From an archaeon (GTDB lineage Archaea > Thermoproteota > Nitrososphaeria > Nitrososphaerales > CADDZS01), in assembly GCA_902812485.1 (NCBI GenBank), contig CADDZS010000002.1, positions 1-51,970 of the forward strand: DNA of 51,970 nt. The letters run 5' to 3'. The stretch's first letter is position 1; each line of letters begins with the position of its first letter. Of the stretch, positions 9,438 through 24,748 are shown in pieces. Below the pieces are notes generated by a model that was given only the letters and a program-made list of their open reading frames with translations, ran no database searches and was not told the origin of the DNA. The translations under genes and the position numbers were made by a program.

Positions 9438-11801
9438 TCAGCCAGTCGCGAAATTCTCCCTTTCCCTGAGAGCCTTAAGAACTTTCTCAGGGGTCATAGG
9501 TAGCTCGAACAGCCGAACTCCCACGGCGTCGTATATTGCATTCGCTATCGCGGCCGGGGTTGGGATACAACCGTGTTCTCCAAGCCCCTTTGCTCCAAAT
9601 GGACCAGCAGGATCTGGCTCTCCAATGAAATGAATTTCTATCTCGGGCACTTCCAGGCTAGTAACTATCTTGTAATCGGCAAAGCTGGGGTTCACAACCA
9701 TTCCTTCTTCGAGATCAAGCTTTTCGAAGAGCGAGTAGCCCAACGACATTATGATTCCTCCTTGAATCTGGCCTTCTGCGCCGTTGGGATTGAGTATCCT
9801 TCCTGCATCGTGAACTGCCACGACTTTCAAAACTTCGACCTTTCCCGTTTCCTCGTCGACCTCAACGAGTACAGCTTGCGTACCAAAAGCGTAAGTCGCA
9901 GAGATGTTGCCCTCGTATGTTTCGGGGTCAGCCATGCGTGTTGGAGGATCATAGAAGGCGCTTGCCATTATCATTGTGCCTTTTTCCCGAAAGTGAGCCT
10001 GCCTCAACATTTTCGAGTATTCCACCCTTTTGCGAGGGTCCAAAAGGGAAAATATCTCCCCGTTCTTTATGTCGAGATTTTTTTCGTCTTCAGAAAGAAA
10101 CCTGCTCGCAATCCTAAGCAGCTGATTCTTTGCATCTCTTGCCGCAAGGAGAGCAGCGTTTCCCCCAATGAAGGTCCCCCTGCTGGCATGTATCCCCACG
10201 TCCCAAGGCTTGAGCGCAGTATCATTGTTAATCAGGACGACTTTAGAAATCGGTACGCCCAGCTCCTCAGCAACAACTTGAACAATGGCAGTGTCAGAGC
10301 CTGTGCCTATTTCTGACATCCCGGTGAAAACTGTTACTCGTCCGAAATCGTCGATCTTGATCATGGTACCACAACCATCTGATCTGTAAACTCGCGCTCC
10401 TCCGGCCACATGGAACAGGGTTGCAAATCCAATTCCCCTCTTCTTCGAGGACGTATCTGTCGAAAGGAGACTCTCGCTTCTCCTTCCCCTCCATCCTATC
10501 CTCTTGCTCGCAAGTTTCAGGGTCTCTTCCATTGCACAAGTAGTGATTCTCATTCCCTGGCAAGTTACGTCATCAGGCCTGTTTGCATTTCGAACTCTGA
10601 GTTCGATGGGGTCAACTCCAAGCTTTTCTGCGAGAATGTCCATCTGGGATTCGATTGCGAATGTGATCTGTGGGTTTCCAGCACCTCTCATTGTGCCAGA
10701 AGATGGATTGTTCGTGTAAACAGGGTAGGCGTCAAATTGAACATTCTCGATCCTGTATAGGCCTGTCGAAGTTGCCATCATCACTCGGGCATCGAAGGCT
10801 CCCCACGAGAGGTAGGCTCCGATATCCAAGAAAACTTCAACCTTCCTTGCGACGAGTTTTCCTTCTTTTGTTGCTGCGGTCTTGATTTGTATTATTGCTG
10901 GCTGACGTGTCGGCGAACAGCTAAGATCTTCTTCTCGAGAAAGGACAATCTTCACAGGTCTACATGTTTTCATGGAGAGAAGAGATGCTATGATGTCAAC
11001 CGAATACAGATCCATCCCCCTGCCAAAGGATCCTCCAATGTATGGCTGGATCACTCGCACTCTTTCGCCCGGTATGCCGAGAGCATCAGCAAGCTCCCTT
11101 TGATACATGAAAGGCGCTTGAGTATTCGCGTATATCGTAAGTATGCCGTCAGCCCCGTATGACGCAAGGGCACCCATAGTTCCAAGTGCAGTATGAGTCA
11201 TAAAATGTAGCCTAAAGGTGTCTTCGACAGTAACAACATCTGCCCTTGAGAACATCTTGTCAGGATCCCCTGCTTTGAAATGGAAGGAGACGTTCGGCAT
11301 GTTCCTCTTAGCTTCTTCGTGAAGATTGGGTGCGCCTTCCTTCATCGCTTCGATCGGATCAAAGACCGGTTCCAGATTTTCATACTCTACTTCGATTAGT
11401 TCAAGCGCTTTAAGTGCGATTTCCTCTGTCTCTGCCGCCACGGCCGCTACTTCGTCTTGATAAGAGAGCACTTTGGAATCTTTGAGCGGAAGATTGTCCT
11501 TCATGAATCCGAACTTGATCTTCGGCGTGTCCTCTGCAGTTATCACAGCATAGACCCCCTCAAGCTTCCTAGCTCTCTCGGTGTCTATCTTGAGGATTCT
11601 AGCATGCGGCCTTCTACTTCTCAGAATCTTGCCATATAGCATTCCTGGAAGTTTGAGATCAATCAAGTATTGCGCCTTTCCAGTAACCTTCTCAGAAGAG
11701 TCATATTTCGGAACTCTTTTCCCAATCACATTGAACCTCTGTGCTTCAAGATCAGAGCCAATTTCTTGGGACATTTCTTCTTCATGGGCAAGGCTAGGCA
11801 T
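9438..11801 (-). CDS. xanthine dehydrogenase / CO dehydrogenase family Mo-binding subunit
   Basis: A 787-residue large subunit of the molybdenum hydroxylase family (xanthine dehydrogenase, aldehyde oxidoreductase, CoxL, 4-hydroxybenzoyl-CoA reductase alpha). Seen: the N-terminal ald_Xan_dh_C hammerhead domain (about 35-140), the Mo-pterin motif regions GGSFGRGMD and GTMRGAGNPQ, and the C-terminal GAKGLGEHG whose Glu (about 742) is the catalytic base. The active-site loop lacks the AYRCSFR cysteine motif of true CO dehydrogenase. The FAD and 2Fe-2S subunits normally encoded next to it are absent here, so it either uses partners encoded elsewhere or forms an atypical enzyme. ATG start at 11799-11801 with a G-rich SD-like stretch upstream on the minus strand. 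Confidence 0.9.
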   Translation of the reverse strand: MPSLAHEEEMSQEIGSDLEAQRFNVIGKRVPKYDSSEKVTGKAQYLIDLKLPGMLYGKILRSRRPHARILKIDTERARKLEGVYAVITAEDTPKIKFGFMKDNLPLKDSKVLSYQDEVAAVAAETEEIALKALELIEVEYENLEPVFDPIEAMKEGAPNLHEEAKRNMPNVSFHFKAGDPDKMFSRADVVTVEDTFRLHFMTHTALGTMGALASYGADGILTIYANTQAPFMYQRELADALGIPGERVRVIQPYIGGSFGRGMDLYSVDIIASLLSMKTCRPVKIVLSREEDLSCSPTRQPAIIQIKTAATKEGKLVARKVEVFLDIGAYLSWGAFDARVMMATSTGLYRIENVQFDAYPVYTNNPSSGTMRGAGNPQITFAIESQMDILAEKLGVDPIELRVRNANRPDDVTCQGMRITTCAMEETLKLASKRIGWRGRRSESLLSTDTSSKKRGIGFATLFHVAGGARVYRSDGCGTMIKIDDFGRVTVFTGMSEIGTGSDTAIVQVVAEELGVPISKVVLINNDTALKPWDVGIHASRGTFIGGNAALLAARDAKNQLLRIASRFLSEDEKNLDIKNGEIFSLLDPRKRVEYSKMLRQAHFREKGTMIMASAFYDPPTRMADPETYEGNISATYAFGTQAVLVEVDEETGKVEVLKVVAVHDAGRILNPNGAEGQIQGGIIMSLGYSLFEKLDLEEGMVVNPSFADYKIVTSLEVPEIEIHFIGEPDPAGPFGAKGLGEHGCIPTPAAIANAIYDAVGVRLFELPMTPEKVLKALRERENFATG

Positions 11802-11999
11802 GCGTCCGAATTCCCCCCTACTTCCTTCTTCCTCCTTCCTGTTGTTGCTTCTTTCCCAATTTAGAGAAATTCTTCACAAAGAGCAATTCGATGTGAAAGT
11901 CGGGTAAAGTTTTTGAAGGAAGGGGGAAGAGAGAGGAAACAATTTCCATCAAACATGGTCATAACCTCTTTTGCTCTTTCCTTGCTCTTCTTCAACTCA

Positions 12000-14276
12000 T
12001 CAAGAGAATTGCACTGGCTCGATCTTGACTGCGCTTGCGGGAATCGTCCGTCCATCTTCATCATAACGTGAAGTCAAAGCGTACCCTCTCGGAATAAAGC
12101 TCACTATGTTTTCGAGATATCTAGGCGAAAGGCCACTCCTGAAACCAGCTAGCTCGTCTCGGATCACTTTCTCGCCTGACAGCCGCTGAAGTATTTCAAG
12201 GCAATCAGAACCCAAGAACTCGCGGATCTGAGATCTCGATGTTGCCAATATAGAATTCCCTCCGCCTTTGAGACTTTCTAAAATTTCATGGCACTTCCGT
12301 TTGAGGCTCTCGCTCTTGAAACGATCAAGTGAATCTTCTAAGACTATTACCGAATTTCTGAGCTTCAAATTCTGAAAAAACTTGAGTAAGAGAAGAGAGC
12401 ATATTTCTCTTTCTTCCCTAGTTGTTAGGTCCTTGAGCCCTCTGCCCGATAGGTCGAACAAGAAACATTGTCCATTTTCCTGTTTCAATACATCCTTCAG
12501 TTGGTCAAAGACGGTCGAAGACGAGAACGCTTTTGCAGCTGTTGGTCTAGCAACAAGATTTTTAGAAATTTTCTGACCAATTTGAGTAACTTCAGGCTCC
12601 GCAATAATTGAAGAAGCAATCTGTGAAAGGGAAACAGAATCTAGGTCTGATCCAGATTGAAACTTGTTCCTAACAATGGAGGCTATTCTTGCCCGTTGCT
12701 GATCTGTGCAACTCACGCCTGTCTCGAAGCACCATTCTTGAATTAAATCTGCAAGAAATTCAGCCCCCGCGCTCCTCCAATCTTCTTTGTCTTCTTCTTC
12801 TTTCTCCCTTGATCCCGAGACTATTCCAAGTATCGGGATGGAAAACTCCTTGGCTTGAGAATCACCCGCAAATGCAAACACCTGCCATCCGTACTTCCAA
12901 GCGATCCCTCGGTGCTCTCCCTTCTGGTCAACGACAACCACCTTTGTAGAGTCTCTTAGCGATCCAAGGCCATCGAGTAGCTTCCGGAGCGTGGTGCTTC
13001 GTCCAGAACCTGACGAGCCAACAATCGCAACTCCAAGCCTTCTAATAGTTGACGCGCGTAAGTAGTAGTCTCCAGTGAACTTTACAGCTGCCGCGATTTC
13101 GTTCTCTGGCAACTTTCTCGTAAGCACCTTGAGAAATTGATCCATTTCGATTGTTTTACCAAGGAGAATCGAATCCTTTTCCGCAACTCTTGCGGCCTGC
13201 TCCTCAATTTTCTCTCGTCGTGCTGCTTCTACTTCCGTACTGACTTGTGTGCGTTCCTGTTGTACTACTGAAACCTGCTTCTCGAGTTCCAGCCTTTTCC
13301 TTGTCTTCGCCTTTTCTTCTTCTTGAAGAAGCTCTCTCCGCCTTCTCTCAGCTTCAGCTTCTCTCAGAGACCTTTCTCTTTCTTCTTCCTCCTCCTTCTC
13401 TTGTTTTAGGAACAAGACGACTTCGTCAAGGAGGATTGGTGCCATTGCAATGTATCGTGCGGACGGGATATTTGCAAAGTAGTTCGCAAACTCTTCAGGA
13501 ATATCCACCCCCTTATCCATCACACCAGATTTTTCGATGAGCTCCAAAAGGAATGCCCGCTCTGATTGCCCAAGCTTTCTGTTTTCCTTTAGCTCTTTTA
13601 GCTGCGACAGCAGTACTCCCTCGGAGGGAAGCGAAACCCTCTCTATCAGGATATCTGCATTTTCCTTTGCAAAGAAAGAAGGAACCCAGATTGAGTAGTC
13701 TCCTGAGCTCGATTTGAGAAGCAACTTGTTGAAGATACCCTTCTCGACAACCAGATTTTCAAACCTGAGCTCTCGCATCAAAGGCGATTCGGCTTTCACA
13801 GCTGCAAAGAATCTTTCAAAATCTTCTCCGCTAGAAACAAGCGATTTTCCAAATTCGGATCGAAACACTATTTCAGTTGTGGATCTTCGAATGAGCCTTA
13901 GGGTTGCGTCAATTGCTCTTCGCTCATCCATATTCATGTGAATGAACCGTTCAGCAATTGACGATATCATCACGCTAGAGACGCTTCGAAGCTCAGAAAT
14001 TAGGGCACTTTTGACTGCTTCCACATCTTGGTTTGCCACAGCTAAGAAATTCGAAATATCATTCTTTGCATTTGTAGCAGCCCTCTTCGATGCGATTTCC
14101 GGAAATCTCTGTGACAGATTCGAAAGAATTGCTTCAAAGACCGATTCAAGACTTTGAAGCTCGAGCTTGCTTATTGGACTGTCAACGAATTCGCTGTACG
14201 CGTCAAGCTGGGCTGGAATCTCTTTGTACCTATCAACTGCGAAATGAACAAGCTGTTGCAAATCTGCCAAAGGCAA
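12000..14276 (-). CDS. HerA-like P-loop protein with coiled coil and degenerate Walker A
   Basis: A 758-residue protein. Residues 1-285 are an alpha-helical domain of unknown type. Residues about 290-370 form a strongly charged coiled coil (runs of Glu/Arg). The C-terminal part (about 375-758) has the HerA/FtsK-like layout: P-loop GSSGSGRST (420-428), VVVDQKGEH (about 447-455), Walker-B-like VIVLEDSLD (643-651) and SILATSRSQ (about 675-683), matching the sensor strand after Walker B. The invariant Walker A lysine is Arg426 (CGA codon), which would normally weaken or abolish ATP hydrolysis. A second, canonical HerA-type gene is present at 27248-28945. TTG start at 14274-14276, preceded by GGGAGAG. 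It may be a structural or regulatory partner of an active ATPase rather than a motor. Confidence 0.8.
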   Translation of the reverse strand: MPLADLQQLVHFAVDRYKEIPAQLDAYSEFVDSPISKLELQSLESVFEAILSNLSQRFPEIASKRAATNAKNDISNFLAVANQDVEAVKSALISELRSVSSVMISSIAERFIHMNMDERRAIDATLRLIRRSTTEIVFRSEFGKSLVSSGEDFERFFAAVKAESPLMRELRFENLVVEKGIFNKLLLKSSSGDYSIWVPSFFAKENADILIERVSLPSEGVLLSQLKELKENRKLGQSERAFLLELIEKSGVMDKGVDIPEEFANYFANIPSARYIAMAPILLDEVVLFLKQEKEEEEERERSLREAEAERRRRELLQEEEKAKTRKRLELEKQVSVVQQERTQVSTEVEAARREKIEEQAARVAEKDSILLGKTIEMDQFLKVLTRKLPENEIAAAVKFTGDYYLRASTIRRLGVAIVGSSGSGRSTTLRKLLDGLGSLRDSTKVVVVDQKGEHRGIAWKYGWQVFAFAGDSQAKEFSIPILGIVSGSREKEEEDKEDWRSAGAEFLADLIQEWCFETGVSCTDQQRARIASIVRNKFQSGSDLDSVSLSQIASSIIAEPEVTQIGQKISKNLVARPTAAKAFSSSTVFDQLKDVLKQENGQCFLFDLSGRGLKDLTTREEREICSLLLLKFFQNLKLRNSVIVLEDSLDRFKSESLKRKCHEILESLKGGGNSILATSRSQIREFLGSDCLEILQRLSGEKVIRDELAGFRSGLSPRYLENIVSFIPRGYALTSRYDEDGRTIPASAVKIEPVQFS

Positions 14277-14424
14277 ACTGGTTCACTCTCCCTGGGATTT
14301 TTTTCGTTAAAAAGTGGAATTGTTACTGAATTCTGACTTCTTCTTGAACAACATAAGCGAACTTGCCTGAAAAGAGGTCATATTTATTCAAGTATGAGAA
14401 ATCAAAAGATCCCAAAGAAACGTA

Positions 14425-14586
14425 ATGGAACACGACGAAACGAGTTCTTTAAAACAAAGATCCCTAACTTCTCCGCTTCACTTTCTTTTTGCGCTTAATG
14501 AGTCTTTAACTGATGAAATTTCAAAGGAAAACTTTGGAGATGGATTTGTGCTAACAAATCTCAAAAAAGAAGAGACAACTAGTTAG
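14425..14586 (+). CDS. possible small acidic protein (53 aa)
   Basis: ATG-started frame giving a hydrophilic 53-residue peptide beginning MEHDETSSLKQRS. TATTTATT at 14381-14388 lies about 40 bases upstream, which would give a transcript with a leader of roughly 14 bases. No domain is recognised. A 34-residue frame starting at 14394 overlaps it in another register, so the evidence is thin. Confidence 0.25.
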   Translation: MEHDETSSLKQRSLTSPLHFLFALNESLTDEISKENFGDGFVLTNLKKEETTS

Positions 14587-14765
14587 CGCATTTGGTCATT
14601 CTTGGCTTTAAATGCTTCTGTTTGTCTTGTCTCCCAAACATAAGCACAAGCGGCTCGCTCTTGACAAGAAGTCAGAGGCAAGTAGCTTAATCGTCTCAAT
14701 ATTTGTTTGAAATAAATAGAAGTTCAATAGAAAGAAAGACGCTGCTTTTTCTAAGGAGGAAACTG

Positions 14766-14795
14766 GTGCCTCGAGAATATCGCTAGCCGAGGCAC
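14766..14795 (-). terminator. inverted repeat after the minus-strand KaiC-like gene
   Basis: GTGCCTCG (14766-14773) and CGAGGCAC (14788-14795) are perfect 8-base arms around a 14-base loop, 15 bases beyond the stop of the KaiC-like gene on the minus strand. A second hairpin, GCCGAGA/TCTCGGC (14813-14819/14824-14830), covers the last codons. No T-run follows, so it may be an RNA-stability element rather than a true terminator. Confidence 0.35.
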
Positions 14796-14809
14796 ACAGC
14801 GATCCCCTT

Positions 14810-15601
14810 CTAGCCGAGAAATCTCTCGGCGTAAACAGTAACTCCCTTCTCAGTTATTGAGTAGGGATGAAGCTGCCTATCATGTTTGCATTCTCTCATC
14901 TTCTCGATTTCCAGAGCAGAAACCACCCCACGTCCGGCGAAATGCGAATTATGTAGAACAATAACTCCATGGCACAAATACTCTTCCGGAGGGATCTCCC
15001 TCGTAGTTATTCCGCCGCCGAAACTGGGACCGATTTCGCTCGTCACTATGCTGGTTGTCCCCATGCTCACAAGAGAATCAAGGAGATCTATAATCGCAGC
15101 ACGCCTGTTTTGTTCGTCTGGAAATTGTAGCGCAAGAGAAGTCATTGGATCAACGACGATTCTCGTGGCACGTGTTACTCTGACGTAGCTTCTTATTACG
15201 GTACTAAGAGCTTGAATCGAAAATTCTGGTCCACGAATATGGACAGACGAATTTTTCGAGTCCTCCCTTAAGTGGACTGCTTCTTCTTGCTTTATGGAAG
15301 ATCCGATTTGTCTCAGTGGAGAGGCATCTACAATGGCGAGCTGATTCTTCTTCTCATACTTTTCAAGATCCCAGCCAAAATTTTGCATCTCATTCAAAAG
15401 ATGAAACCTGCTTTCTTCAAGCGAAACAAACACGCCCCTCTCATCGAATCTTTCAACACCGTCGATGAGAAATTGCATTGCCATGATTGTCTTTCCCGAA
15501 CCCGGGCCCCCTGTAACCAAAATCACCCTACCTCTCGGATATCCACCTCCGAGAAGCTCATCAAGTCCAGGAATCCCACTCGGTACATGTTCAGACTTCA
15601 A
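14810..15601 (-). CDS. KaiC-like RecA-superfamily ATPase
   Basis: A 263-residue single-domain KaiC-like protein. It opens with the family signature VPSGIPGLDELLGGGYPRG, then Walker A GGPGSGKT (31-38), FVSLEES (about 58-64) with the two acidic residues typical of KaiC, and a Walker B-type strand TRIVVDPMTSL. Archaeal solo-KaiC proteins bind and slowly hydrolyse ATP and act as regulatory switches. An insertion at about 100-125 (rich in Glu, Ser and His) separates the core strands. It is the first of three KaiC-like genes within 7 kb and is transcribed away from the helical-repeat gene. TTG start; an ATG is not available before the conserved motif. Confidence 0.88.
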   Translation of the reverse strand: MKSEHVPSGIPGLDELLGGGYPRGRVILVTGGPGSGKTIMAMQFLIDGVERFDERGVFVSLEESRFHLLNEMQNFGWDLEKYEKKNQLAIVDASPLRQIGSSIKQEEAVHLREDSKNSSVHIRGPEFSIQALSTVIRSYVRVTRATRIVVDPMTSLALQFPDEQNRRAAIIDLLDSLVSMGTTSIVTSEIGPSFGGGITTREIPPEEYLCHGVIVLHNSHFAGRGVVSALEIEKMRECKHDRQLHPYSITEKGVTVYAERFLG

Positions 15602-15636
15602 ATTTATAATATCGTTGAAACCGTTCAGCTTGGTGT

Positions 15637-15645
15637 TATAAATTC
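15637..15645 (-). promoter_or_regulatory. TATA box for the KaiC-like gene at 14810-15601
   Basis: On the minus strand this reads AATTTATAA, about 40 bases upstream of the TTG start, which would place the RNA start roughly 14 bases before the codon. A second AT-rich box directly abuts the TTG but is too close to act as its TATA element. Confidence 0.4.
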
Positions 15646-16033
15646 CTGCCCTTTTGCCACTGTGTTTTCAAATCCTAATTTCCTACCGACTATAGAAAAG
15701 ATAGTAATGAGACATTCCATCATCTCATTTGAGAGAGATCATCTGAATGCGACTGGTCATAAAGAACTTGAAAAATGAATATCTGAAGAAGCTTCCCAGC
15801 GTGACGAGAGCGCTTTGTAGTTTTTTCCTTCCACTGAAATACGTGCCTAAAGCTTCTAACTATTCAAATTCTCGGTTACCACGATTTCTTCACTGTACGC
15901 AGCTTGCCAATTCTTCCTTTTTCTCATGTAGAACCTATTTCGAGCGAAACACGCCCCTCTCATTAAGACGTCTGATCGGAAAAGCATTCTTCATTTTGTG
16001 TCACCCCACTTCCTGGATTGAACCTGCAGTTCG

Positions 16034-16041
16034 TATATATA
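16034..16041 (+). promoter_or_regulatory. strong TATA box upstream of the helical-repeat gene
   Basis: TATATATA in an otherwise mixed sequence. A start about 25 bases downstream would leave a leader of roughly 150 bases before the TTG at 16213. Within it only an 18-residue frame beginning near 16099 was seen. Confidence 0.35.
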
Positions 16042-16212
16042 GCAGTACGAGGATCTGACGAACGCAAAAAAGACCACGCTTTGGGCCATGAATTGAAGAT
16101 GCAAGAAGCGGGGATCGCATTTCAATTTGGGTTTGCTTATACGTCAAAGGTATGAGCGTCGTGATGCCTCGACTCCATTGAAGTTTGATAATGATTCTGA
16201 CGAGAAATTAAT

Positions 16213-19200
16213 TTGCTCAAAAGGTGGCAGGCCATAAAGGCGCGTATTGTGTCTGATTCAGAAAAATCTTCCTCAATAATGGGAGAGGGCGAAAAGCTAG
16301 GCGCTACAAAGCACTTATCGGATTATTCTCTGTATTCTTATCCTCAGCGAGGAGAGGAATTCTTTGAACTTTTTTCTCGGATATCAGCGCTCTCCAAGGA
16401 AGCAAAGAAACAAGGGCAAGCCCTCGCTTTCTTTAGAAAATCGAGAGAAATTCTTGAAGATAGACTAAAGAAATGTTATGAAACTAAGAGCCGAAGAGAA
16501 GATGCTCTTTCTCTTCTTCCTTGCTATCATTCTTTGCTGGCTCTTGTTCTCTGGCTTTATCCAAATCATATTGGATTCAATAAAGCAAAGCAAGCGTCAT
16601 TGATATTTCAAAATGCAGTAGCTGCTGTTACGACATCTGGTCCGCGTAGGGACATGCCCTTTGCTTTGGGTTTAGCCATCCAACTAAGGATTCTTCCCTT
16701 CCTTGTTCGCGCAAAGAAAGTTAACGAAGATCGTTTGCATGAAACGAGAAAAATTGCACTCGACATAGTTGGAAAATTTGAAACACGGGATCAACCTTTA
16801 AGCACTATTGAAGAAAACTCCTCCCATTCTTCGTTCCCTGTGACTTCGCTATCATATAATCCAGCCGATAGGACCCAAGTGCCAGAAGCTGGTATGCTGG
16901 GAATAATTTACGATGGCCTCGGATTTTCATACTATCAGTTCGAAAGAAACAGGGAACGATCAATTGCCTTTTTGAAAAGGGCGACTAGTTTGATTTCCCA
17001 AGAGCTGAGATATCTTGCCCGAACAGCTCGGTCTAGCAAGCAGAGGAAGACAAGCGGTAAATGGAGAAGAAAGAATCTTGCTACGGTTTTTCCTCACTAT
17101 TTGTTCTACAAATGCTACGCGCCTGTACCCGAGATGGCTCTTGGCCTGTGTCATGAATACTTGGCAGAGAACGTCGAAGGAGAAGAAATGATTGTTCGTG
17201 TCAGAACTTCCAGGTTTCACTACAAAAGAGCTTACGAACTCGCGAAGAAAACTCCTTGGCATGTTTACAAGGCTATGATCGCCTATAATCTCGCCGGTAC
17301 GTACTGGCGGGAAAGCGAGTACCAATCTGATAAGAGAAAAGTAATCGATCTGTTGAAGAAAGCCGTTTCGATAGGAGAGGAGTCTCTAAGGTGGGCTACA
17401 CTCTGGACTCCTTTTGAGAGGGATATTCTTGGAGGATCTTGGATAGCAAGCTTCTATCAAGCTCTCGCGCGACATTCACGACCAAAGGATCAAAGACGGC
17501 TCATGGCAAGATCTATTGCTCTTGCTAAAAGAGCTCAGGAGCAGCTCAAACGTGGGGGCTTCGCAGCCTCGAGGTACGATGCAGTCAACATTGGAGATGT
17601 ATTCTACCACACATCTGAATATTACCGAGATGCTGCTTCCAAGGCAGTGGAAAGCGAAATTGGCATTTCTTCCCAAAGCTCAAGGTTTTCCAGAGAAAAA
17701 GTAAGGCAAGAGTCGGAAGAAACAAAGTCAAGACGCTCGATTCTTACCAAATCTCTGGAATTCGCGGCGAAGTCATTGAAGTTCTACAAAGAGGAAAGAT
17801 ACGAAAAGAGGGCAGTGGATGCAAGGCTGCTAGCTTCGGCGGTCTGTCATGAGCTAGAGAAGTTCAAGGAATCGCAATCGAATAGTAGCCCGTATGGAAG
17901 AATGGCAAAGCACCACTTGAGTAAGGCCTTGAAACTATGTCAAAAAAACAATTGGAATGAAAAACTTGCGGAATCTTATTGGTTGATGGGGCAGATACTC
18001 GACGTGAAAGGAGACTTTTTGGGTAGTGCCTCATTTTTCTCTAAGGCCCGTGAAGCTTACGAAGCTGCGAGAGTTGCTTCCGAAAATTCAAGGGTATACC
18101 AAGGATTTGCTAATTTCATGCAGGCTTTGAACAAAATCGAACTCGCGAAGGAAGCACACAGATCTTCAAATTTTGAGCTGGCTTCAAAGAGCTATGCAGA
18201 GGCGGCCAAGTTTGTAGCACTTTCGCGAAGATGGGAGCACAGAGCCCCCGTCTTGAGGGCAGAATCTGTAATAGAGGAAGCTGAGAGAGCTTCTTCTAGC
18301 GAAGATTTTGAATCATCTCTTAATTCTTTCAGAAAAGCAATCGAGATCCTAACGAGGTTCAAAGAGGATGTAGGCAGTCAGAAAGGGTGGTCGGAAGATA
18401 TCGACGAGCTGGAGAGGCAAAGCGACGTTCTAATCAAGTTCTGCAAAGCGAGAATAATGCTTGAAACATCAAAGCATGCCTACCAAGTGGGAAATCTTGA
18501 ACAGTCAATATCAGAGCTGAAATCCGCGGAGGAAATGTTTCTTTCACTTGCCTCAAATTCTGCAATCTCTTCAGATCCGCTGAAAGCAAGCGAACTTAGA
18601 ACACTAGCTTCTCTTTGCATCGCGTTAAGCGCCTTTCAGAGAGCGCAACAGGAGAACAACCCTGGACTTTATGTCAAAGCTAGGGAAATTTTCGAAGGTG
18701 CAGCTGAAACTTCCTCCTCTAAATACCTTAGAGCACTTCTCTTGGGGCTTTCAAATTTTGCATCTTTCCTTTACAGCTCTACTTCGCTCGAGAGCAGTCT
18801 CGAAGGCTCGTTTGATGTTCAGAAGGTTATTGAATGCAATAAGAGCCTTGATCGCTCAGAGCTTATGTTTCGAAGGGTGGGAAATAGATCATTTCTTAAT
18901 TTGTTGCGAGCTTCGAAGCACATCTTGGATGCAACGATCAAAATGAGCGCAGCTGAGAGAGAAATTGAGAATCCCGAGCTCAAGGCCTCTCTGTACTCAC
19001 AGGCACAAAAGTCGCTATCTTATGCTTCACGATATTATGAATCACTTGGGGCTTCAAAGCGGGTCAGGGAAGCTTTGAAAATGGTGACAGCCGTTAGAAA
19101 TCATCAACGACTCCTTCCCCTTGCTCACGACATTATAGCAGAAGTAGCATCTTCTCAAATCATCTATTCAACGATCTCCACTTCGTCGCTTCTAGATCAG

Positions 19201-19959
19201 ACTCCTAGCTCTGCGGGGCGAGCTGCAGGTTCAGCTTTCATTGCTCTTGATGTGGAAATCCCGCAGTCGTACTTGACTACAGACGAGGAATTTTCTTATT
19301 ACATCTATCTTTCAAACTTGGGTCTAAAACCGGCGGTTGCATTCAGGATGGATGAGGTCGCCCCGGAAGGTTTTGAGATTGTCAAAGCTCCGTATCCAAT
19401 TATAGCCGGAAGATCTTTGAAGCTTAATTTGAGAATAGACCCTTCATCCGAAAAGAAGATCGCGTTGCAGCTGAGACCTCTTTCTTCAGGCGACTTTGTC
19501 TGGCACCCTTCGCTTATTTATCTGGACGAGGGGCGAAACTACAGAGCAACGAAACCACAGACAGTCAGGGCAGTCATCGAGTCGCCAGGACTAAATCTAG
19601 AGGTCGCTCTCCAAGAGAAAGAGAAACTCGAAATTGAGCTTGGAAAATTTTCGGAGAAACTTGAGGAAGTTTCGAATAAAGGCATCGGTATGGGGCAATT
19701 GAATTTCAGTGAGGAGTACTATTCACTCAAAGAAAAGATTTCTGCAATAGATGAAATGATAGCGAGGACAAAGAACGAATACCAATCGCTTCAGTCCGAG
19801 CTTGAGAAGATCCGCAGTGACATATTGTCTTTAAGGCAGAGCGGAAGAGAGGATCCTGAATCCGAAGCACAGAGAACGGATCTGGAATTTCAGGAAAGGC
19901 TCATTTTAGCGAAGCTTGAAAGGAGGAAGAGACAATTAGAACAAGCACATCTATTGTAA
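16213..19959 (+). CDS. giant helical-repeat (TPR-like) protein with Ig-like and coiled-coil C-terminus
   Basis: A 1248-residue soluble protein. Residues about 40-1000 are a long array of amphipathic helix pairs with TPR-like character (for example AESYWLMGQILDVKGDFLGS and ALSAFQRAQQENNPGLYVKA). At about 1025-1130 there is an all-beta segment with QSYLTTDEEFSYYIYLSNLG and SEKKIALQLRPLSSGDF, resembling an Ig-like/CARDB-type domain. Residues about 1135-1248 form a charged coiled coil. No enzyme motif was seen. Its last 25 bases overlap the frame of a KaiC-like ATPase, so the two are almost surely co-expressed. A scaffold for KaiC-like switches is my inference. The frame opens with TTG; an ATG 22 codons in is an alternative start. 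Confidence 0.85.
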   Translation: MLKRWQAIKARIVSDSEKSSSIMGEGEKLGATKHLSDYSLYSYPQRGEEFFELFSRISALSKEAKKQGQALAFFRKSREILEDRLKKCYETKSRREDALSLLPCYHSLLALVLWLYPNHIGFNKAKQASLIFQNAVAAVTTSGPRRDMPFALGLAIQLRILPFLVRAKKVNEDRLHETRKIALDIVGKFETRDQPLSTIEENSSHSSFPVTSLSYNPADRTQVPEAGMLGIIYDGLGFSYYQFERNRERSIAFLKRATSLISQELRYLARTARSSKQRKTSGKWRRKNLATVFPHYLFYKCYAPVPEMALGLCHEYLAENVEGEEMIVRVRTSRFHYKRAYELAKKTPWHVYKAMIAYNLAGTYWRESEYQSDKRKVIDLLKKAVSIGEESLRWATLWTPFERDILGGSWIASFYQALARHSRPKDQRRLMARSIALAKRAQEQLKRGGFAASRYDAVNIGDVFYHTSEYYRDAASKAVESEIGISSQSSRFSREKVRQESEETKSRRSILTKSLEFAAKSLKFYKEERYEKRAVDARLLASAVCHELEKFKESQSNSSPYGRMAKHHLSKALKLCQKNNWNEKLAESYWLMGQILDVKGDFLGSASFFSKAREAYEAARVASENSRVYQGFANFMQALNKIELAKEAHRSSNFELASKSYAEAAKFVALSRRWEHRAPVLRAESVIEEAERASSSEDFESSLNSFRKAIEILTRFKEDVGSQKGWSEDIDELERQSDVLIKFCKARIMLETSKHAYQVGNLEQSISELKSAEEMFLSLASNSAISSDPLKASELRTLASLCIALSAFQRAQQENNPGLYVKAREIFEGAAETSSSKYLRALLLGLSNFASFLYSSTSLESSLEGSFDVQKVIECNKSLDRSELMFRRVGNRSFLNLLRASKHILDATIKMSAAEREIENPELKASLYSQAQKSLSYASRYYESLGASKRVREALKMVTAVRNHQRLLPLAHDIIAEVASSQIIYSTISTSSLLDQTPSSAGRAAGSAFIALDVEIPQSYLTTDEEFSYYIYLSNLGLKPAVAFRMDEVAPEGFEIVKAPYPIIAGRSLKLNLRIDPSSEKKIALQLRPLSSGDFVWHPSLIYLDEGRNYRATKPQTVRAVIESPGLNLEVALQEKEKLEIELGKFSEKLEEVSNKGIGMGQLNFSEEYYSLKEKISAIDEMIARTKNEYQSLQSELEKIRSDILSLRQSGREDPESEAQRTDLEFQERLILAKLERRKRQLEQAHLL
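19919..19937 (+). promoter_or_regulatory. strong SD sequence followed by an ATT codon
   Basis: AAAGGAGG (19919-19926) lies inside the end of the helical-repeat gene, 8 bases before ATT at 19935. The KaiC-like frame is closed by TGA at 19917-19919 and contains no ATG, GTG or TTG until 20016, which falls after the conserved KaiC N-terminal signature. ATT is therefore the best-placed start codon. Confidence 0.5.
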
Positions 19960-20669
19960 AGAGCCTAATCAAAGGAATAGAACAACTCACCTTCGGAGGA
20001 TTCCTTCCTAGTGGATTGAATCTTTTGTGCGGGACGAGCGGCTGTGGAAAGACAATTTTCTGTGAGCAGTACGCCTTTGAGATTTTGAAAAAGGGCGGCA
20101 AGGTCATCTGGATTACAACCGAAGAGCTGCCCACAAGTATAAGGGAAGGAATGCTACGCTTTGGATGGGATGTCGAGCCATTTGAAGAGAGTAGGAAATT
20201 TGTGATCCTGGATGCAGCTAGTCCTGCAAGGCTCGGGCTATCTGAAAACGTTGGTCACGGAATGCTTGGACTGGACCCGACAGGAATGCTCATTGTTATC
20301 ACCGACCAGCTGCGCTCTTCACAAACCGAAGAAGAAGATCCGGAGAAGTTGATCCTTGTCTTAGACTCTGTATCGCGTTTGTTGCTTTCCTGCGAGTACA
20401 AGGCTGTGATAGACTTTGTTGCTTGTCTCAATTCCAGACTGGAAAATTTTCGAGTGAGAGGTTTAGCCACTGTGTGTGAAGGCGCTCATGAGGACAAGGC
20501 GCTGAATTCACTTACTTTCTCTTGTGCTGGAACCATAAAGTTCAGGATACGCGAGGAAGGGGACTTGAGGGTTAGACAGTTTAGGATAGATTCCCTACGG
20601 GGAAGATCTCACGACGACAGGTGGAGGAATTATTCGCTTACTAACTCCGGGGTAGACATCGAGATCTAA
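19935..20669 (+). CDS. KaiC-like RecA-superfamily ATPase with non-canonical (ATT) start
   Basis: Read from ATT the product has 244 residues and begins with a KaiC-type N-terminus, TSTSIVKSLIKGIEQL, where family members have STGIPGLDELLGG. Walker A is GTSGCGKT (33-40), followed by VIWITTEELPTSI with the KaiC-type paired acidic residues, and a Walker B-type strand KLILVLDSVSRLL. If translation instead began at the TTG at 20016 the N-terminal strand would be lost. It overlaps the helical-repeat gene by 25 bases and lies 42 bases upstream of the next KaiC-like gene, so the three probably form one operon. It is more divergent than its neighbours and could be a non-hydrolysing partner. Confidence 0.8.
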   Translation: MRTSTSIVKSLIKGIEQLTFGGFLPSGLNLLCGTSGCGKTIFCEQYAFEILKKGGKVIWITTEELPTSIREGMLRFGWDVEPFEESRKFVILDAASPARLGLSENVGHGMLGLDPTGMLIVITDQLRSSQTEEEDPEKLILVLDSVSRLLLSCEYKAVIDFVACLNSRLENFRVRGLATVCEGAHEDKALNSLTFSCAGTIKFRIREEGDLRVRQFRIDSLRGRSHDDRWRNYSLTNSGVDIEI

Positions 20670-20711
20670 GACAAATGAAGATTTGAACTGGGCGTTGGTG
20701 AATCTCGTGAA

Positions 20712-21485
20712 ATGATGGAAAAGGAAACTAAGGTAAGCTACAGGGAAGGAAGGGCAAGCCATGCGGGGATGACAAGTCGAGTAAAGACTGGTATAGACGG
20801 CTTCGACGAACTAGTGCTAGGTGGCTTTCCAAGAGGAAATTCCATCTTGGTTACTGGTGGAACTGGGACAGGAAAGAGCACCTTTGCACTTCAGTTTGTC
20901 TACAAAGGGGCCAAGGTCTATGATGAAGCCGGAATCTACGTGACCCTTGAAGAATCTATCCCTTCAATCATCAAGAATGCGGCCTCATATGGATGGGAAA
21001 TCGAGGATCTAGAACAGGCTGGCAAGCTTGCGATGATTGATGTTTCACCAGCAGTTAGTGGACAACTCCGTAAAATCAGTCCCACTGATATTTACTCCAA
21101 TGTTTCGCAGATATGCAAGAAGATCGGAGCTAAGAGAATAGTTGTTGATCCAATAACGGTTATGGGAATGCAATTTGAGAGCTCGGTTGACATGCGGCTC
21201 GACTTGCTCCGCTTTGCAAGTTTGCTGAAACAGCTCGAGGCAACAGTCCTCTTTGTAACTGAGATCTCGGAGGAGAGCCAAGCCCTCAGTCGCTTTGGCA
21301 TCGAGGAGTTCATCTCTGATGGGGTCGTGGTGCTATACTATTCGAAAGTAGGGGGATTGAGAGTTCGCGGTATAGAAGTGAGGAAGATGAGAGGAACAGC
21401 TCACAAGGAGGGCATATTTCCAATAAAGATGGGAGAGACTGGGCTCTCCGTGTATCCATCGGCAAAAGTACCCAAGCTGAGTTGA
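20712..21485 (+). CDS. KaiC-like RecA-superfamily ATPase
   Basis: A 257-residue single-domain KaiC-like protein with VKTGIDGFDELVLGGFPRG (about 24-42), Walker A GGTGTGKST (49-57), YVTLEES (about 76-82) and a Walker B-type strand KRIVVDPITVMGMQF. The DPIT segment is shared with the 14810 paralog (DPMTSLALQF), while the 20 kb paralog differs. The C-terminal part (RVRGIEVRKMRGTAHKEG) matches the KaiC signature for the end of the core, which usually contacts the neighbouring subunit. It starts with tandem ATG codons 42 bases after the preceding KaiC-like gene. The protein probably works as an oligomeric ATP-dependent switch; its output partner may be the NitrOD5-like protein downstream. Confidence 0.9.
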   Translation: MMEKETKVSYREGRASHAGMTSRVKTGIDGFDELVLGGFPRGNSILVTGGTGTGKSTFALQFVYKGAKVYDEAGIYVTLEESIPSIIKNAASYGWEIEDLEQAGKLAMIDVSPAVSGQLRKISPTDIYSNVSQICKKIGAKRIVVDPITVMGMQFESSVDMRLDLLRFASLLKQLEATVLFVTEISEESQALSRFGIEEFISDGVVVLYYSKVGGLRVRGIEVRKMRGTAHKEGIFPIKMGETGLSVYPSAKVPKLS

Positions 21486-21688
21486 GGTTCAAATGTCGAG
21501 TTTTGTTACCGCTTGGCTGGGCCAATAGTGACAAAAAATCTGAAAGTCATTCGGTACCTCACATCTGTACTAAAAGACCCTGAGCAAAGTGTTGTGACTT
21601 GCTAGCAATGGACAGCCGCTTCAGATGCATTTGAAATAAAGTAGAATTGATGAACTTACTACCTTCAAAATAACAAGTTGAGAACCAC

Positions 21689-22033
21689 ATGAGTGCAGAT
21701 TTATCATTAAACGTAGATTCGGATTTTTCAAGGATACTGCGTTTGGTAGTTTCCGAGACACTCGACAGTTTTGGAGAAGGCGTGAAGACAGTTGTCCTCT
21801 TTAATTTGGGTCAGAAGTTCAATGCTTCTTCAGAGGATGTACTGTGCAACCCGGCGCTTCTCGAGGCTGGCCTGAGAGACATCTTCGGAATGGGCTCTGG
21901 GCTCATTGAGGAAAAGATAACACAGACAATATGCGACGTATTGAAAGTGGATCCAAACGAGCTCCATGGCAATTTCGAAGAGAAAATGGAATCCATAAAG
22001 CAAAGGGCTAGAATTAGGAGAAATATGCCCTGA
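21689..22033 (+). CDS. NitrOD5-like output-domain protein
   Basis: A 114-residue helical protein matching my memory of the NitrOD5 ('Nitrosopumilus output domain 5') pattern: VSETLDSFGEGVKTVVLFNL, then an acidic/hydrophobic stretch, then LRDIFGMGSGLIEEKITQTI. Such domains are expanded in Thaumarchaeota, alone or fused to signalling modules. It follows the KaiC-like operon by about 200 bases on the same strand. That suggests, without proving, that it is an output of the same pathway. The last 25 residues are basic (KQRARIRRNMP). Good confidence it is a gene, moderate on the family. Confidence 0.72.
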   Translation: MSADLSLNVDSDFSRILRLVVSETLDSFGEGVKTVVLFNLGQKFNASSEDVLCNPALLEAGLRDIFGMGSGLIEEKITQTICDVLKVDPNELHGNFEEKMESIKQRARIRRNMP

Positions 22034-22288
22034 GCTTTGTAGAAAAAGAATTCAACTCGTTCTCTCGCCCACTCTTCGTCCCTTTTTCCATATTCCACTA
22101 ATTTGTTCTTCAACAGATTGTCCTGGATTCTTGTACAAATTGACTTTGAGATCATCCAGTGAATATGCGAAAGATCGAACCCTTCAGGGCTTATTTCTTA
22201 GAACTTTGCAAAACCTAAGCGTGAGTAGCGAGCTAAATCCAAGTTCTTTGAGAAATGAATATTGCTTAGGAATTTCGCCAACGAATCA

Positions 22289-22768
22289 ATGCCTCGTCTG
22301 AGAAAGGACAGCTATCCCGTTTTGACTGTGGATGCAATTGTGCGAAAAAACTCCGATGAGATATTGATCGAGCAGAGAGGAGTTGAACCATACAAGGGTT
22401 CTCTGGCTTTTCCAGGAGGACATGTTGAATATGGCGAGACAGTTGAGCATGCCGTCCTTCGTGAGCTCTGGGAAGAGTGTTCAGTCGTAGCAACACTTCG
22501 GTCCATCTTGGGCGTCTACAGCGATCCTACGAGAGACCCTAGAGGCCAAAGAGTTTCGGTTGTCTTCATAGCTGATTACAAGAGAGGAACAGCCAAAGCA
22601 GGAGACGATGCGCGTTCTGTGTCTTGGATGAAAATCGAAGATTTAAGAAGACGCAGGAGTCTGCTTGCATTCGATCACAAGCTGATATTCCGGGATTACT
22701 TGACTTGGCGCAATAGTGTAAAGAATGAGAACTGGGATTATACCTTCTGGTCTTCAAAGAAAAGGTGA
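22289..22768 (+). CDS. Nudix hydrolase
   Basis: A Nudix pyrophosphohydrolase of about 159 residues. The Nudix box is GGHVEYGETVEHAVLRELWE followed by EC, with the catalytic Arg-Glu-x-x-Glu-Glu present; the usual Gly near the end of the box is Ser. The N-terminal strand YPVLTVDAIVRKN and the preceding basic residues fit ADP-ribose/nucleotide-sugar pyrophosphatases. The C-terminus WDYTFWSSKKR is unusual but in frame. I prefer the ATG at 22289 (MPRLRKDSYP); the frame extends nine codons further up to a TTG at 22262. It is convergent with the TrmB-type regulator. Confidence 0.88.
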   Translation: MPRLRKDSYPVLTVDAIVRKNSDEILIEQRGVEPYKGSLAFPGGHVEYGETVEHAVLRELWEECSVVATLRSILGVYSDPTRDPRGQRVSVVFIADYKRGTAKAGDDARSVSWMKIEDLRRRRSLLAFDHKLIFRDYLTWRNSVKNENWDYTFWSSKKR

Positions 22769-22833
22769 AGGAACAAAGAAGAAGAGAGAGTTATGTTTGT
22801 TTTGCTTGAAGCTTCGTATAACTCGTTCTTCCA

Positions 22834-23727
22834 TCAAATCCGGGAGCAATTCCGCCAAATTTCTTCCAGGACCCGGCGAGTGGAGCGTGCGAACGCGATG
22901 TTCTTTATCCAAATGGCTATGGAATGGTTGCTCTCTTTTGAAAGAGGATCTGGAACACCAATGAGAACGTTTTGGGAGTCGGCGATCATCATGTCAAATA
23001 ATATGTTCTCAGAGCTCTTGATCTCTACGCCTGCATCTTTCACGGCTTTGATTTCTTCATCCTTCAGCTTGGCATCCTTGGGCACGATTAATTTGATTGA
23101 CTTGGAGGACGACGGTTGGTCTTGAGATGAATAATTCATTCTGTTGAATAACAGAGGAAGGAAGACATCCCTTCTTTCAATAGATCTCTTTGCAACTAGG
23201 AATACATCGTGAGATTCATCGAGAAGTTCAGAGAAAGCGTTGGCAATCGAATTAAGCCCCTTCAGGACAGATATTTGAGATTCACTAGGTCTCAGCCTTC
23301 CATTGTCTGAAAGTCTTGTGCTAGAAAGATTTTCGAGCGCGGCAGTAAGCGTTTTCTCGGCTGATCTTCTTTTCATTTGATCCTGGAGGTACTGCTCTTC
23401 GAATTGGAGAATCCTTCCCTTGAGCGCTTCAGCAGGTTTGATTGGAAGAAAATAGCCTTCTTCTTCCTCCTCCTGTTTTGCAACAAAGCCCTTTTCCATG
23501 AGCGTGTCTAAGGTATCGTATACACGGGGAAGAGGAATACTAGCGTTCTGAGAAAGCTGCTTTGCATTTTGAGCACCCTTCTTCACTAGAGAAATATAGG
23601 CTCTTGCTTCGTATCCCGAGAGCTTGAAACTATCTTTGAGAGAAGCTTCGAGTGCGCCCTCCTGGATGTAACTACTTGAATTCCCATTACTTGGGAAATT
23701 CTTTGTCTTCTTTCTCTCTTTCTTCAT
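22834..23727 (-). CDS. TrmB-family transcriptional regulator
   Basis: A 297-residue TrmB-type regulator. The winged-helix domain (about 28-100) reads FKLSGYEARAYISLVKKG, then RVYDTLDTLMEKGFV as recognition helix and turn. A coiled linker (about 110-155) follows, then a C-terminal effector-binding domain of the phospholipase D-like fold (HDVFLVAKRSI, NILFDMMIADSQNVLIGVPD, and SIAIWIKNIAFA at the end). TrmB proteins sense sugars or other metabolites and switch transport and central-metabolism genes. The effector and targets are unknown. ATG start in ATGAAGAAAGAG on the minus strand. Confidence 0.9.
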   Translation of the reverse strand: MKKERKKTKNFPSNGNSSSYIQEGALEASLKDSFKLSGYEARAYISLVKKGAQNAKQLSQNASIPLPRVYDTLDTLMEKGFVAKQEEEEEGYFLPIKPAEALKGRILQFEEQYLQDQMKRRSAEKTLTAALENLSSTRLSDNGRLRPSESQISVLKGLNSIANAFSELLDESHDVFLVAKRSIERRDVFLPLLFNRMNYSSQDQPSSSKSIKLIVPKDAKLKDEEIKAVKDAGVEIKSSENILFDMMIADSQNVLIGVPDPLSKESNHSIAIWIKNIAFARSTRRVLEEIWRNCSRI

Positions 23728-23880
23728 GGTTGGGCCCTTATCAGCTTGCTGAAACTAAATCCTATCTCAAAGCGCTTCACTGAAGCCATATGAAGAATTT
23801 AAATCCCAAGGAAAACCAAGCGTGCAAAAGGAGTACACGAGGCTCTCGCTGTTGTTTACCATATTTCTCTATTCTTCCAT

Positions 23881-23902
23881 TAACCTTTCCTGATGAAGGT
23901 TA
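23881..23902. promoter_or_regulatory. inverted repeat, possible operator
   Basis: TAACCTT (23881-23887) and AAGGTTA (23896-23902) are perfect 7-base arms separated by TCCTGATG. It lies about 155 bases upstream of the TrmB start, where a self-binding regulator could act; this role is inferred. Confidence 0.3.
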
Positions 23903-24163
23903 GGATGATTCTATCCGTTTTGGTTATAGCTTTTACTCAGAATCAAAACGCAGAAATTCTTTCTCGGGCATCTCTTCTTTGATTTTCTGTTGTTTCATTC
24001 CACAAGTTTTCTTAGCATCTGCTTTTCCCGTCTGGCCTGTTTCTTCTTTTCTCTCACTCGCAAGCGTTGCATAGAAAAATGATGGGCACACAATCCGGTG
24101 ACAAAACTGAATACTATGACATTTCGAGAAATGAATCAGAAAGGCACAATCCTAAAAAGAGAG

Positions 24164-24171
24164 TTAAAAAT
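24164..24171 (+). promoter_or_regulatory. TATA box for the arginine decarboxylase gene
   Basis: TTAAAAAT centred about 29 bases upstream of the TTG at 24197, consistent with leaderless transcription from the start codon. Confidence 0.45.
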
Positions 24172-24196
24172 CGAATTGATCAAGTAAAAAGAAAAA

Positions 24197-24748
24197 TTGC
24201 CGACACTCGTCCCGAAAAAAATCTTCCTAACTAAGGGAGTCGGAAAACACAAAGAAAAACTGGCAAGTTTTGAACTAGCACTAAGAGATGCTGGCATCGA
24301 GGCCTACAACCTCGTTCCAGTCTCGAGCATCTTCCCTCCAAGATGTAAGCTGGTTAGCAGAAAAGAAGGTCTTGCAGAACTCACTCCTGGTCAGATACTT
24401 TTCTTAGTACTGAGCAAGCTCTCCACAAATGAACCCAATAGGCTGATAGCTGCTTCGGTCGGTCTCGCGATTCCCCAGGACAGGAACACGTGGGGGTATT
24501 TGTCTGAGCACGAAGACTATGGTGAGACAGACGAAAAAGCAGGAGACTATGCAGAGGATCTGGCGGCTTCGATGCTTGCTTCAACGCTTGGGATCCCCTT
24601 CAATCCTGATCAGAGCTATGATGAGAAGAAGCAACTTTGGAAGATTTCTGGTAAGATCGTTAGAACGACTCACATAACCCAGTCTGCAGAGGGGGACAAG
24701 AACGGATTGTGGACGACGGTTGTAGCAGCGGCTGTCCTCCTTACATAG
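24197..24748 (+). CDS. pdaD: pyruvoyl-dependent arginine decarboxylase
   Basis: A 183-residue proenzyme of the PvlArgDC family, full length. It decarboxylates arginine to agmatine, the first step of archaeal polyamine synthesis. The self-cleavage site is the Ser-Ser pair in [10 protein letters not shown] (Ser43-Ser44); serinolysis turns the second Ser into the pyruvoyl group. The substrate-binding segment [13 protein letters not shown] and the conserved late [14 protein letters not shown] are also present. TTG start, apparently leaderless, and a T-run terminator right after the stop, so the gene seems monocistronic. Confidence 0.92.

Follow-up and report, generated by a model that had tools for sequence, protein, structure and literature searches.

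A 51,970-nt stretch of contig CADDZS010000002.1 (assembly GCA_902812485.1, a 2.36-Mb draft genome of an archaeon of the Nitrososphaerales), hereafter the window, carries a constant set of five genes, which encode three single-domain KaiC-like ATPases (KaiC1, KaiC2 and KaiC3), a 1248-residue protein here called the scaffold, and a HerA-like P-loop protein. Positions 12000–22033 hold, from left to right, the HerA-like and KaiC1 genes on the reverse strand, followed by the scaffold, KaiC2, KaiC3 and a small gene on the forward strand (Table 1). We propose, with about an even chance of being right, that the products of the five constant genes make up a scaffolded multi-ring KaiC regulatory switch in which KaiC2 is translationally coupled to the scaffold, a proposal whose assembly, ring state, AUU initiation and signalling role we infer. 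A preliminary description of the locus, made from the sequence, had pointed to three KaiC-like ATPases flanking the 1248-residue protein. These are real, as confirmed by PF06745 matches, complete ATPase motifs and the open reading frame (ORF) of 1248 residues, and the genes it gave all exist, yet it overlooked the constant HerA-like gene to their left. In agreement with that description, no account of such a set was found in the literature searched.

Conservation and composition of the gene set

The scaffold was searched for in 100 relatives, in 400 genomes of the class, and in 9 genomes of this Nitrososphaerales family. Full or near-full orthologs were found in 8/9 family genomes, representing all three genera, and none outside the family among the 100 relatives and the 400-genome class sample. 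The order HerA-KaiC1/scaffold-KaiC2-KaiC3 is kept around each ortholog in the three genera wherever the contig reaches, and the HerA-like gene adjoins KaiC1 in each genome whose contig extends far enough. Thus, the proposal of a linked set withstood two checks, since the neighbourhood persists in relatives and the scaffold orthologs adjoin KaiC genes in all 8 genomes. Ortholog identity to the window is 72–77% (about 75%) for KaiC1, 63–69% (about 66%) for KaiC3, 57–62% (about 59%) for KaiC2, about 50% for the HerA-like protein, and 38–46% (about 41%; 7 orthologs) for the scaffold. Because synteny is kept in 8/9 family genomes and three genera at roughly 40% scaffold identity, the linkage of the genes is not due to chance.

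The three ATPases score 211.8 (KaiC1), 111.4 (KaiC2) and 230.3 bits (KaiC3) against PF06745, for which the curated cut-off is 26.6, and their Walker A, Glu-Glu and Walker B motifs are complete in every ortholog checked. In a tree of 64 KaiC-family proteins, KaiC1, KaiC2 and KaiC3 each form one family-specific clade on a long stem, with deeper relations limited by the quick method and by some long branches. As judged from this tree, three old and distinct lineages have come together in KaiC1–3, and an origin by tandem duplication, as in a recent expansion, is ruled out. Since each has its own clade with a long stem, three separate roles are indicated. The nearest solved relatives of KaiC3 are the CI domains of KaiC, which align over its whole length and are closer than ArlH, and in an alignment made by eye KaiC3 bears EEFISD at the position of the CII phosphosites, as CI does. 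Its conserved block starts at ATG 20769, ATG 20712 being a possible alternative. KaiC1–3 share their fold family and full ATPase motifs with the cyanobacterial CI domain and with the single-domain archaeal KaiC-like ATPases, while differing from both in their linkage to a scaffold and a HerA-like protein, and from cyanobacterial KaiC in lacking the CII kinase half. A KaiABC clock has a double-domain KaiC with CII autokinase, whereas each KaiC of the set is single-domain, and neither kaiA nor kaiB appears among the Pfam and NCBIfam matches of the ten proteins encoded at 9438–24748.

The AlphaFold2 model of 1200 scaffold residues (mean predicted local distance difference test (pLDDT) 80.8, predicted template modelling score (pTM) 0.68) has about 38 helices that make up a solenoid, some eleven strands that form a sandwich, and a coiled coil at the C-terminus, which agrees with the architecture read earlier from the sequence, namely tetratricopeptide repeat (TPR)-like, immunoglobulin (Ig)-like and coiled-coil parts. 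The best Foldseek matches of the solenoid are the TPR scaffold subunits Ctr9, Ski3, APC5, LGN and TTC7B, and a scaffolding role is supported because this fold matches scaffolds of multi-protein assemblies. The TPR profile stays below cut-off in the protein (TPR_12, 17.3 bits vs 30.1). The sandwich resembles TRAP-beta (8b5l_v, root mean square deviation 2.6, TMt 0.60), with weak matches to PF05753. Thus, the protein shares an extended TPR-type solenoid with Ctr9, Ski3, APC5 and LGN by fold search, but adds an Ig-like sandwich and a coiled coil, and the kinship seen is one of fold.

Distant scaffold paralogs (16–20% identity) occur both within the family and in two further lineages, with no KaiC genes adjoining. 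They include proteins of 1095–1211 residues without KaiC neighbours at L033, L034, L035, L036, L059 and L060; one genome (G003) has three full-length copies, and some distant paralogs lie near a peptidase or lectin-type gene. A shorter second scaffold-like copy of 572 residues (L031:10584-12302, G007:C53) stands apart from the KaiC set. Two further candidates were rejected: an 1804-residue ORF beside a KaiC gene of G010, which by eye looks like an S-layer-like secreted beta protein, and a 1088-residue ORF near a KaiC2-like gene in G033, which is a class I tRNA synthetase.

The HerA-like protein consists of a helical N-terminal half without assigned fold, a central coiled coil, and a C-terminal HerA/VirB4-like domain, which matches PF01935 with 24.7 bits against a cut-off of 23.2 (E 3e-5). 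Its model is poor (pLDDT 55), and Foldseek still matches it to VirB4 (4ag5, E 1.4e-6) and SIR2-HerA. The protein is family-specific, since matches outside the family cover the P-loop region only. Its Walker A motif reads GSSGSGRST, with Lys replaced by Arg in 5/5 full-length copies, and P-loop chemistry suggests that it may bind ATP without normal hydrolysis. It resembles HerA/VirB4 ATPases (PF01935; SIR2-HerA, HerA-NurA) in the fold of its C-terminal half and in the region past Walker A, and differs from them in the Walker A replacement, in the long N-terminal half, and in having no NurA or SIR2 partner adjoining. A gene for a molybdenum hydroxylase large subunit (window 9438–11801, reverse strand) adjoins the HerA-like gene in five genomes, with no functional link seen.

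To the right of the set, gene content is less constant. The window and, at the same place, L024, L026 and L030 have a NitrOD5-like gene, which L027, L028 and L029 lack; two genera have a Nudix gene after the set, and the third has a radical-SAM gene. The 114-residue protein of the window itself gave no match to NitrOD5 (PF11537) in the profile search, and its label holds at one remove, via a paralog in the same genome (G000:C112) that matches NitrOD5 at E 4e-5 and 24 bits, under the Pfam cut-off of 27. These right-hand genes, the NitrOD5-like and Nudix genes among them, are accessories.

Table 1. Positions of the gene set, its parts and accessories in the window, and of KaiC/membrane-protein pairs elsewhere in the family
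Feature	Position	Strand	Basis
HerA/VirB4-like P-loop protein, 758 aa	12000..14276	-	PF01935 E 3e-5; Foldseek
KaiC1, single-domain KaiC-like ATPase, divergently oriented to scaffold	14810..15601	-	PF06745 E 1e-62; own clade
Scaffold protein, 1248 aa, TTG start (alternative ATG 16279)	16213..19959	+	ORF; 7 orthologs
Scaffold alpha-solenoid, TPR-like	16357..19182	+	AlphaFold2 model residues 1-942; Foldseek
Scaffold Ig-like beta-sandwich, TRAP-beta-like	19240..19581	+	model residues 962-1075; 8b5l_v match
Scaffold C-terminal coiled coil	19597..19953	+	model residues 1081-1199
Shine-Dalgarno AAGGAGG within scaffold 3' end	19920..19926	+	complementary to own-genome 16S tail CCTCCTT
Proposed KaiC2 AUU start codon, 8 nt past GGAGG	19935..19937	+	ATT in 7/7 genomes with the gene overlap
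KaiC2, divergent KaiC-like ATPase, 25-base overlap with scaffold gene	19935..20669	+	PF06745 E 6e-32
KaiC3, KaiC CI-domain-like ATPase (alternative start 20712)	20769..21485	+	PF06745 E 3e-68
Accessory 114-aa protein, distantly NitrOD5-like	21689..22033	+	L024, L026, L030 orthologs; NitrOD5 link via paralog
Accessory Nudix hydrolase	22262..22768	+	PF00293 E 3e-20; neighbourhoods
KaiC/membrane-protein arrays	L166:6529-12432 (G001:C11), L167:1683-7489 (G007:C140), L169:378-6155 (G001:C23), L168 (G003:C137)
Single KaiC/membrane-protein pairs, window's own genome	L146:1667-3149, L149:1562-3068

The start codon of KaiC2

The start chosen for KaiC2 by the ORF caller, TTG 20016, was rejected, as the conserved N-terminal residues that lead up to Walker A would then be lost. 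Ahead of this conserved N-terminus the window offers no ATG, GTG or TTG. The last codons of the scaffold gene contain AAGGAGG, to which the end of the genome's own 16S RNA, GGATCACCTCCTT, is complementary, and exactly 8 bases further on an ATT follows in frame with KaiC2; an equal 8-base spacing is known from the Pyrococcus abyssi aEF1A leader (PMC6237735). The pattern GGAGG-N8-ATT is common to 7/7 genomes in which the scaffold and KaiC2 genes overlap, and the scaffold residues over the invariant ATT vary between genomes (Q-L, L-L, I-F, L-F). When synonymous codons were redrawn from each gene's own usage in four divergent genomes, the share of trials in which all four had GGAGG was 0.03% for one choice of genomes and 0.015% for another, and all four had ATT in 0.015% (P 1.5e-4), these P values being approximate since the test takes the genomes as independent. 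A count of GGAGG-N8-start codons over whole loci did not discriminate. Taken together, the comparison suggests that KaiC2 likely starts at ATT 19935, read as AUU, a very rare start codon, and is coupled to translation of the scaffold. At L027, scaffold and KaiC2 lie about 575 bases apart, with no evident gene in between (L027:5960-6640); there KaiC2 has an ATG, the former AAGGAGG...ATT persists in the scaffold end, and the gap may stem from an insertion or from faulty assembly.

A different origin of KaiC2, by stop-restart at the scaffold stop codon or by a -1 frameshift that fuses it to the scaffold, has in our estimate perhaps one chance in several. In 3/7 genomes an ATG or GTG overlaps the scaffold stop codon, which weighs against AUU initiation, and the KaiC2 frame is -1 relative to that of the scaffold and open upstream. 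This overlapping codon is, however, GTA in the other 4/7 genomes, and it lies 29 bases past GGAGG. The frameshift fusion was rejected, as no slippery heptamer is visible and the ATT, invariant while the overlying scaffold residues change, would be left unexplained. No archaeal AUU start was found in the literature searched. Regulated genes with non-canonical start codons are known in infC (ATT) and Streptomyces sigR (GTC) (PMC5472188), but these are bacterial genes under IF3, whereas KaiC2 is archaeal and its start, inside the upstream gene, is predicted from comparison.

Proposed assembly and competing readings

In the proposed switch, the five constant gene products would form one cytoplasmic regulatory assembly, with the long TPR-type solenoid as its scaffold. 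KaiC1 and KaiC3 would form CI-like rings with ATPase activity, and KaiC2 would contribute a third, divergent ring or subunit. The HerA-like protein, with its altered Walker A lysine, would be a binding partner of ring shape or an ATPase with weak activity. Slow ATP hydrolysis by the KaiCs may change their shape and partner binding, giving an ATP/ADP-dependent switch or hub and not a phosphorylating clock. Ribosomes would load at AAGGAGG in the last scaffold codons and start KaiC2 at AUU, and this start, together with the coupling, may keep KaiC2 low and tied to scaffold output. The output itself would pass through lineage-specific accessories, such as the death-domain-like NitrOD5-like protein.

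Makarova et al. (2017) reportedly proposed archaeal KaiC signal transduction hubs with NitrOD output domains. KaiC-like ATPases and death-domain-like NitrOD5 are placed in an archaeal signalling network that has been proposed (PMC5847659). The present locus resembles those hubs in having KaiC-like ATPases near a death-domain-like NitrOD5-type protein, and differs from them in that its NitrOD5-like gene is optional; a solenoid scaffold, a HerA-like partner and a three-KaiC set are not mentioned in the passages considered here (PMC5847659). The suggestion, made in the preliminary description, of a multi-component ATP-dependent signalling complex is thus reasonable in view of the kept neighbourhood, except that the NitrOD5-like protein is an optional accessory instead of the obligatory output.

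Several observations weigh against the proposed switch. No constant output protein and no sensor domain were found in the set. One family genome (G006, 85% complete) is without the scaffold and the three KaiCs of the set, and the family relatives are draft assemblies, mostly named metagenome-assembled genomes. In addition, clustered KaiC genes are common in this family, which weakens adjacency as evidence. The expectation that KaiC genes usually occur singly fails here, with 5–25 KaiC matches per genome vs mostly 0–5 in related families, and with arrays in which up to four stand in tandem. The unusual feature is that three separate KaiC lineages are constantly partnered with a scaffold and a HerA-like protein that are specific to the family.

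It is unlikely, in our estimate, that only shared expression or slow rearrangement holds the genes together, with products that do not form one complex. The retention of the molybdenum hydroxylase subunit gene beside the HerA-like gene would fit such a linkage, but the five genes stay together across genera that differ in their right-hand neighbours, and the KaiC2 start would lie inside the scaffold gene. Hardly different in probability, and likewise improbable, is an envelope motor machine, in which the KaiCs act on a VirB4/HerA-type ATPase as ArlH does in its motor, and the solenoid is a platform in the cytoplasm that serves secretion, DNA transfer or surface structures. VirB4 and HerA are the best fold matches of the HerA-like protein; the archaellum motor has in ArlH a KaiC homolog (PMC13286277), and thus a KaiC-family ATPase serving a larger machine; and a T2SSE ATPase gene occurs with several KaiC genes in the same taxonomic order (L138). 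Yet the constant set contains no membrane protein, pilin, archaellum or T2SSE gene, the sequence of KaiC3 is nearer to KaiC CI than to ArlH, and the Walker A lysine of the HerA-like protein is replaced. DNA handling, in repair, segregation or defence, is the least probable reading: HerA and KaiC/RecA folds do occur in DNA machines, HerA being part of SIR2-HerA anti-phage and HerA-NurA complexes, but no nuclease domain was found in profile searches of the locus proteins, nearly all family genomes have retained the set by vertical descent, at a single locus next to metabolic genes, and PADLOC yields generic P-loop matches only for the five constant proteins, on which ground an anti-phage defence system was rejected.

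Other KaiC loci and significance

The same family holds tandem arrays of up to four alternating pairs of a KaiC-like ATPase and a membrane protein (Table 1). The ATPase has a P-loop of the type GPPGIGKE in place of GKT/S, and the membrane protein, of about 240–290 residues with an estimated 4–8 transmembrane stretches, has no Pfam match; these pairs appear to form a second membrane system of the family that is based on KaiC and is as yet undescribed. A further locus, L138:1098-10502 (G024:C13), combines four KaiC-family genes with a T2SSE ATPase gene and an adjacent protein without clear family, and is possibly an archaellum- or pilus-like locus with several KaiCs.

Archaeal KaiC-like ATPases are abundant and have been proposed as signalling hubs, but few of their physical partners are known; the present set, fixed and with a scaffold of its own, offers a concrete candidate complex for purification. 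The conserved GGAGG-N8-ATT makes archaeal AUU initiation directly testable; if true, KaiC2 would be an AUU-initiated archaeal gene supported by cross-genus comparison, and one that routine annotation would truncate. Tentatively, and at less than even chance, the family may possess a new archaeal machine, in which three different KaiC rings, together with a HerA-like ring whose catalysis is altered, would be arranged along one giant solenoid, and a conserved AUU start inside the scaffold gene would determine how much of one ring is made.

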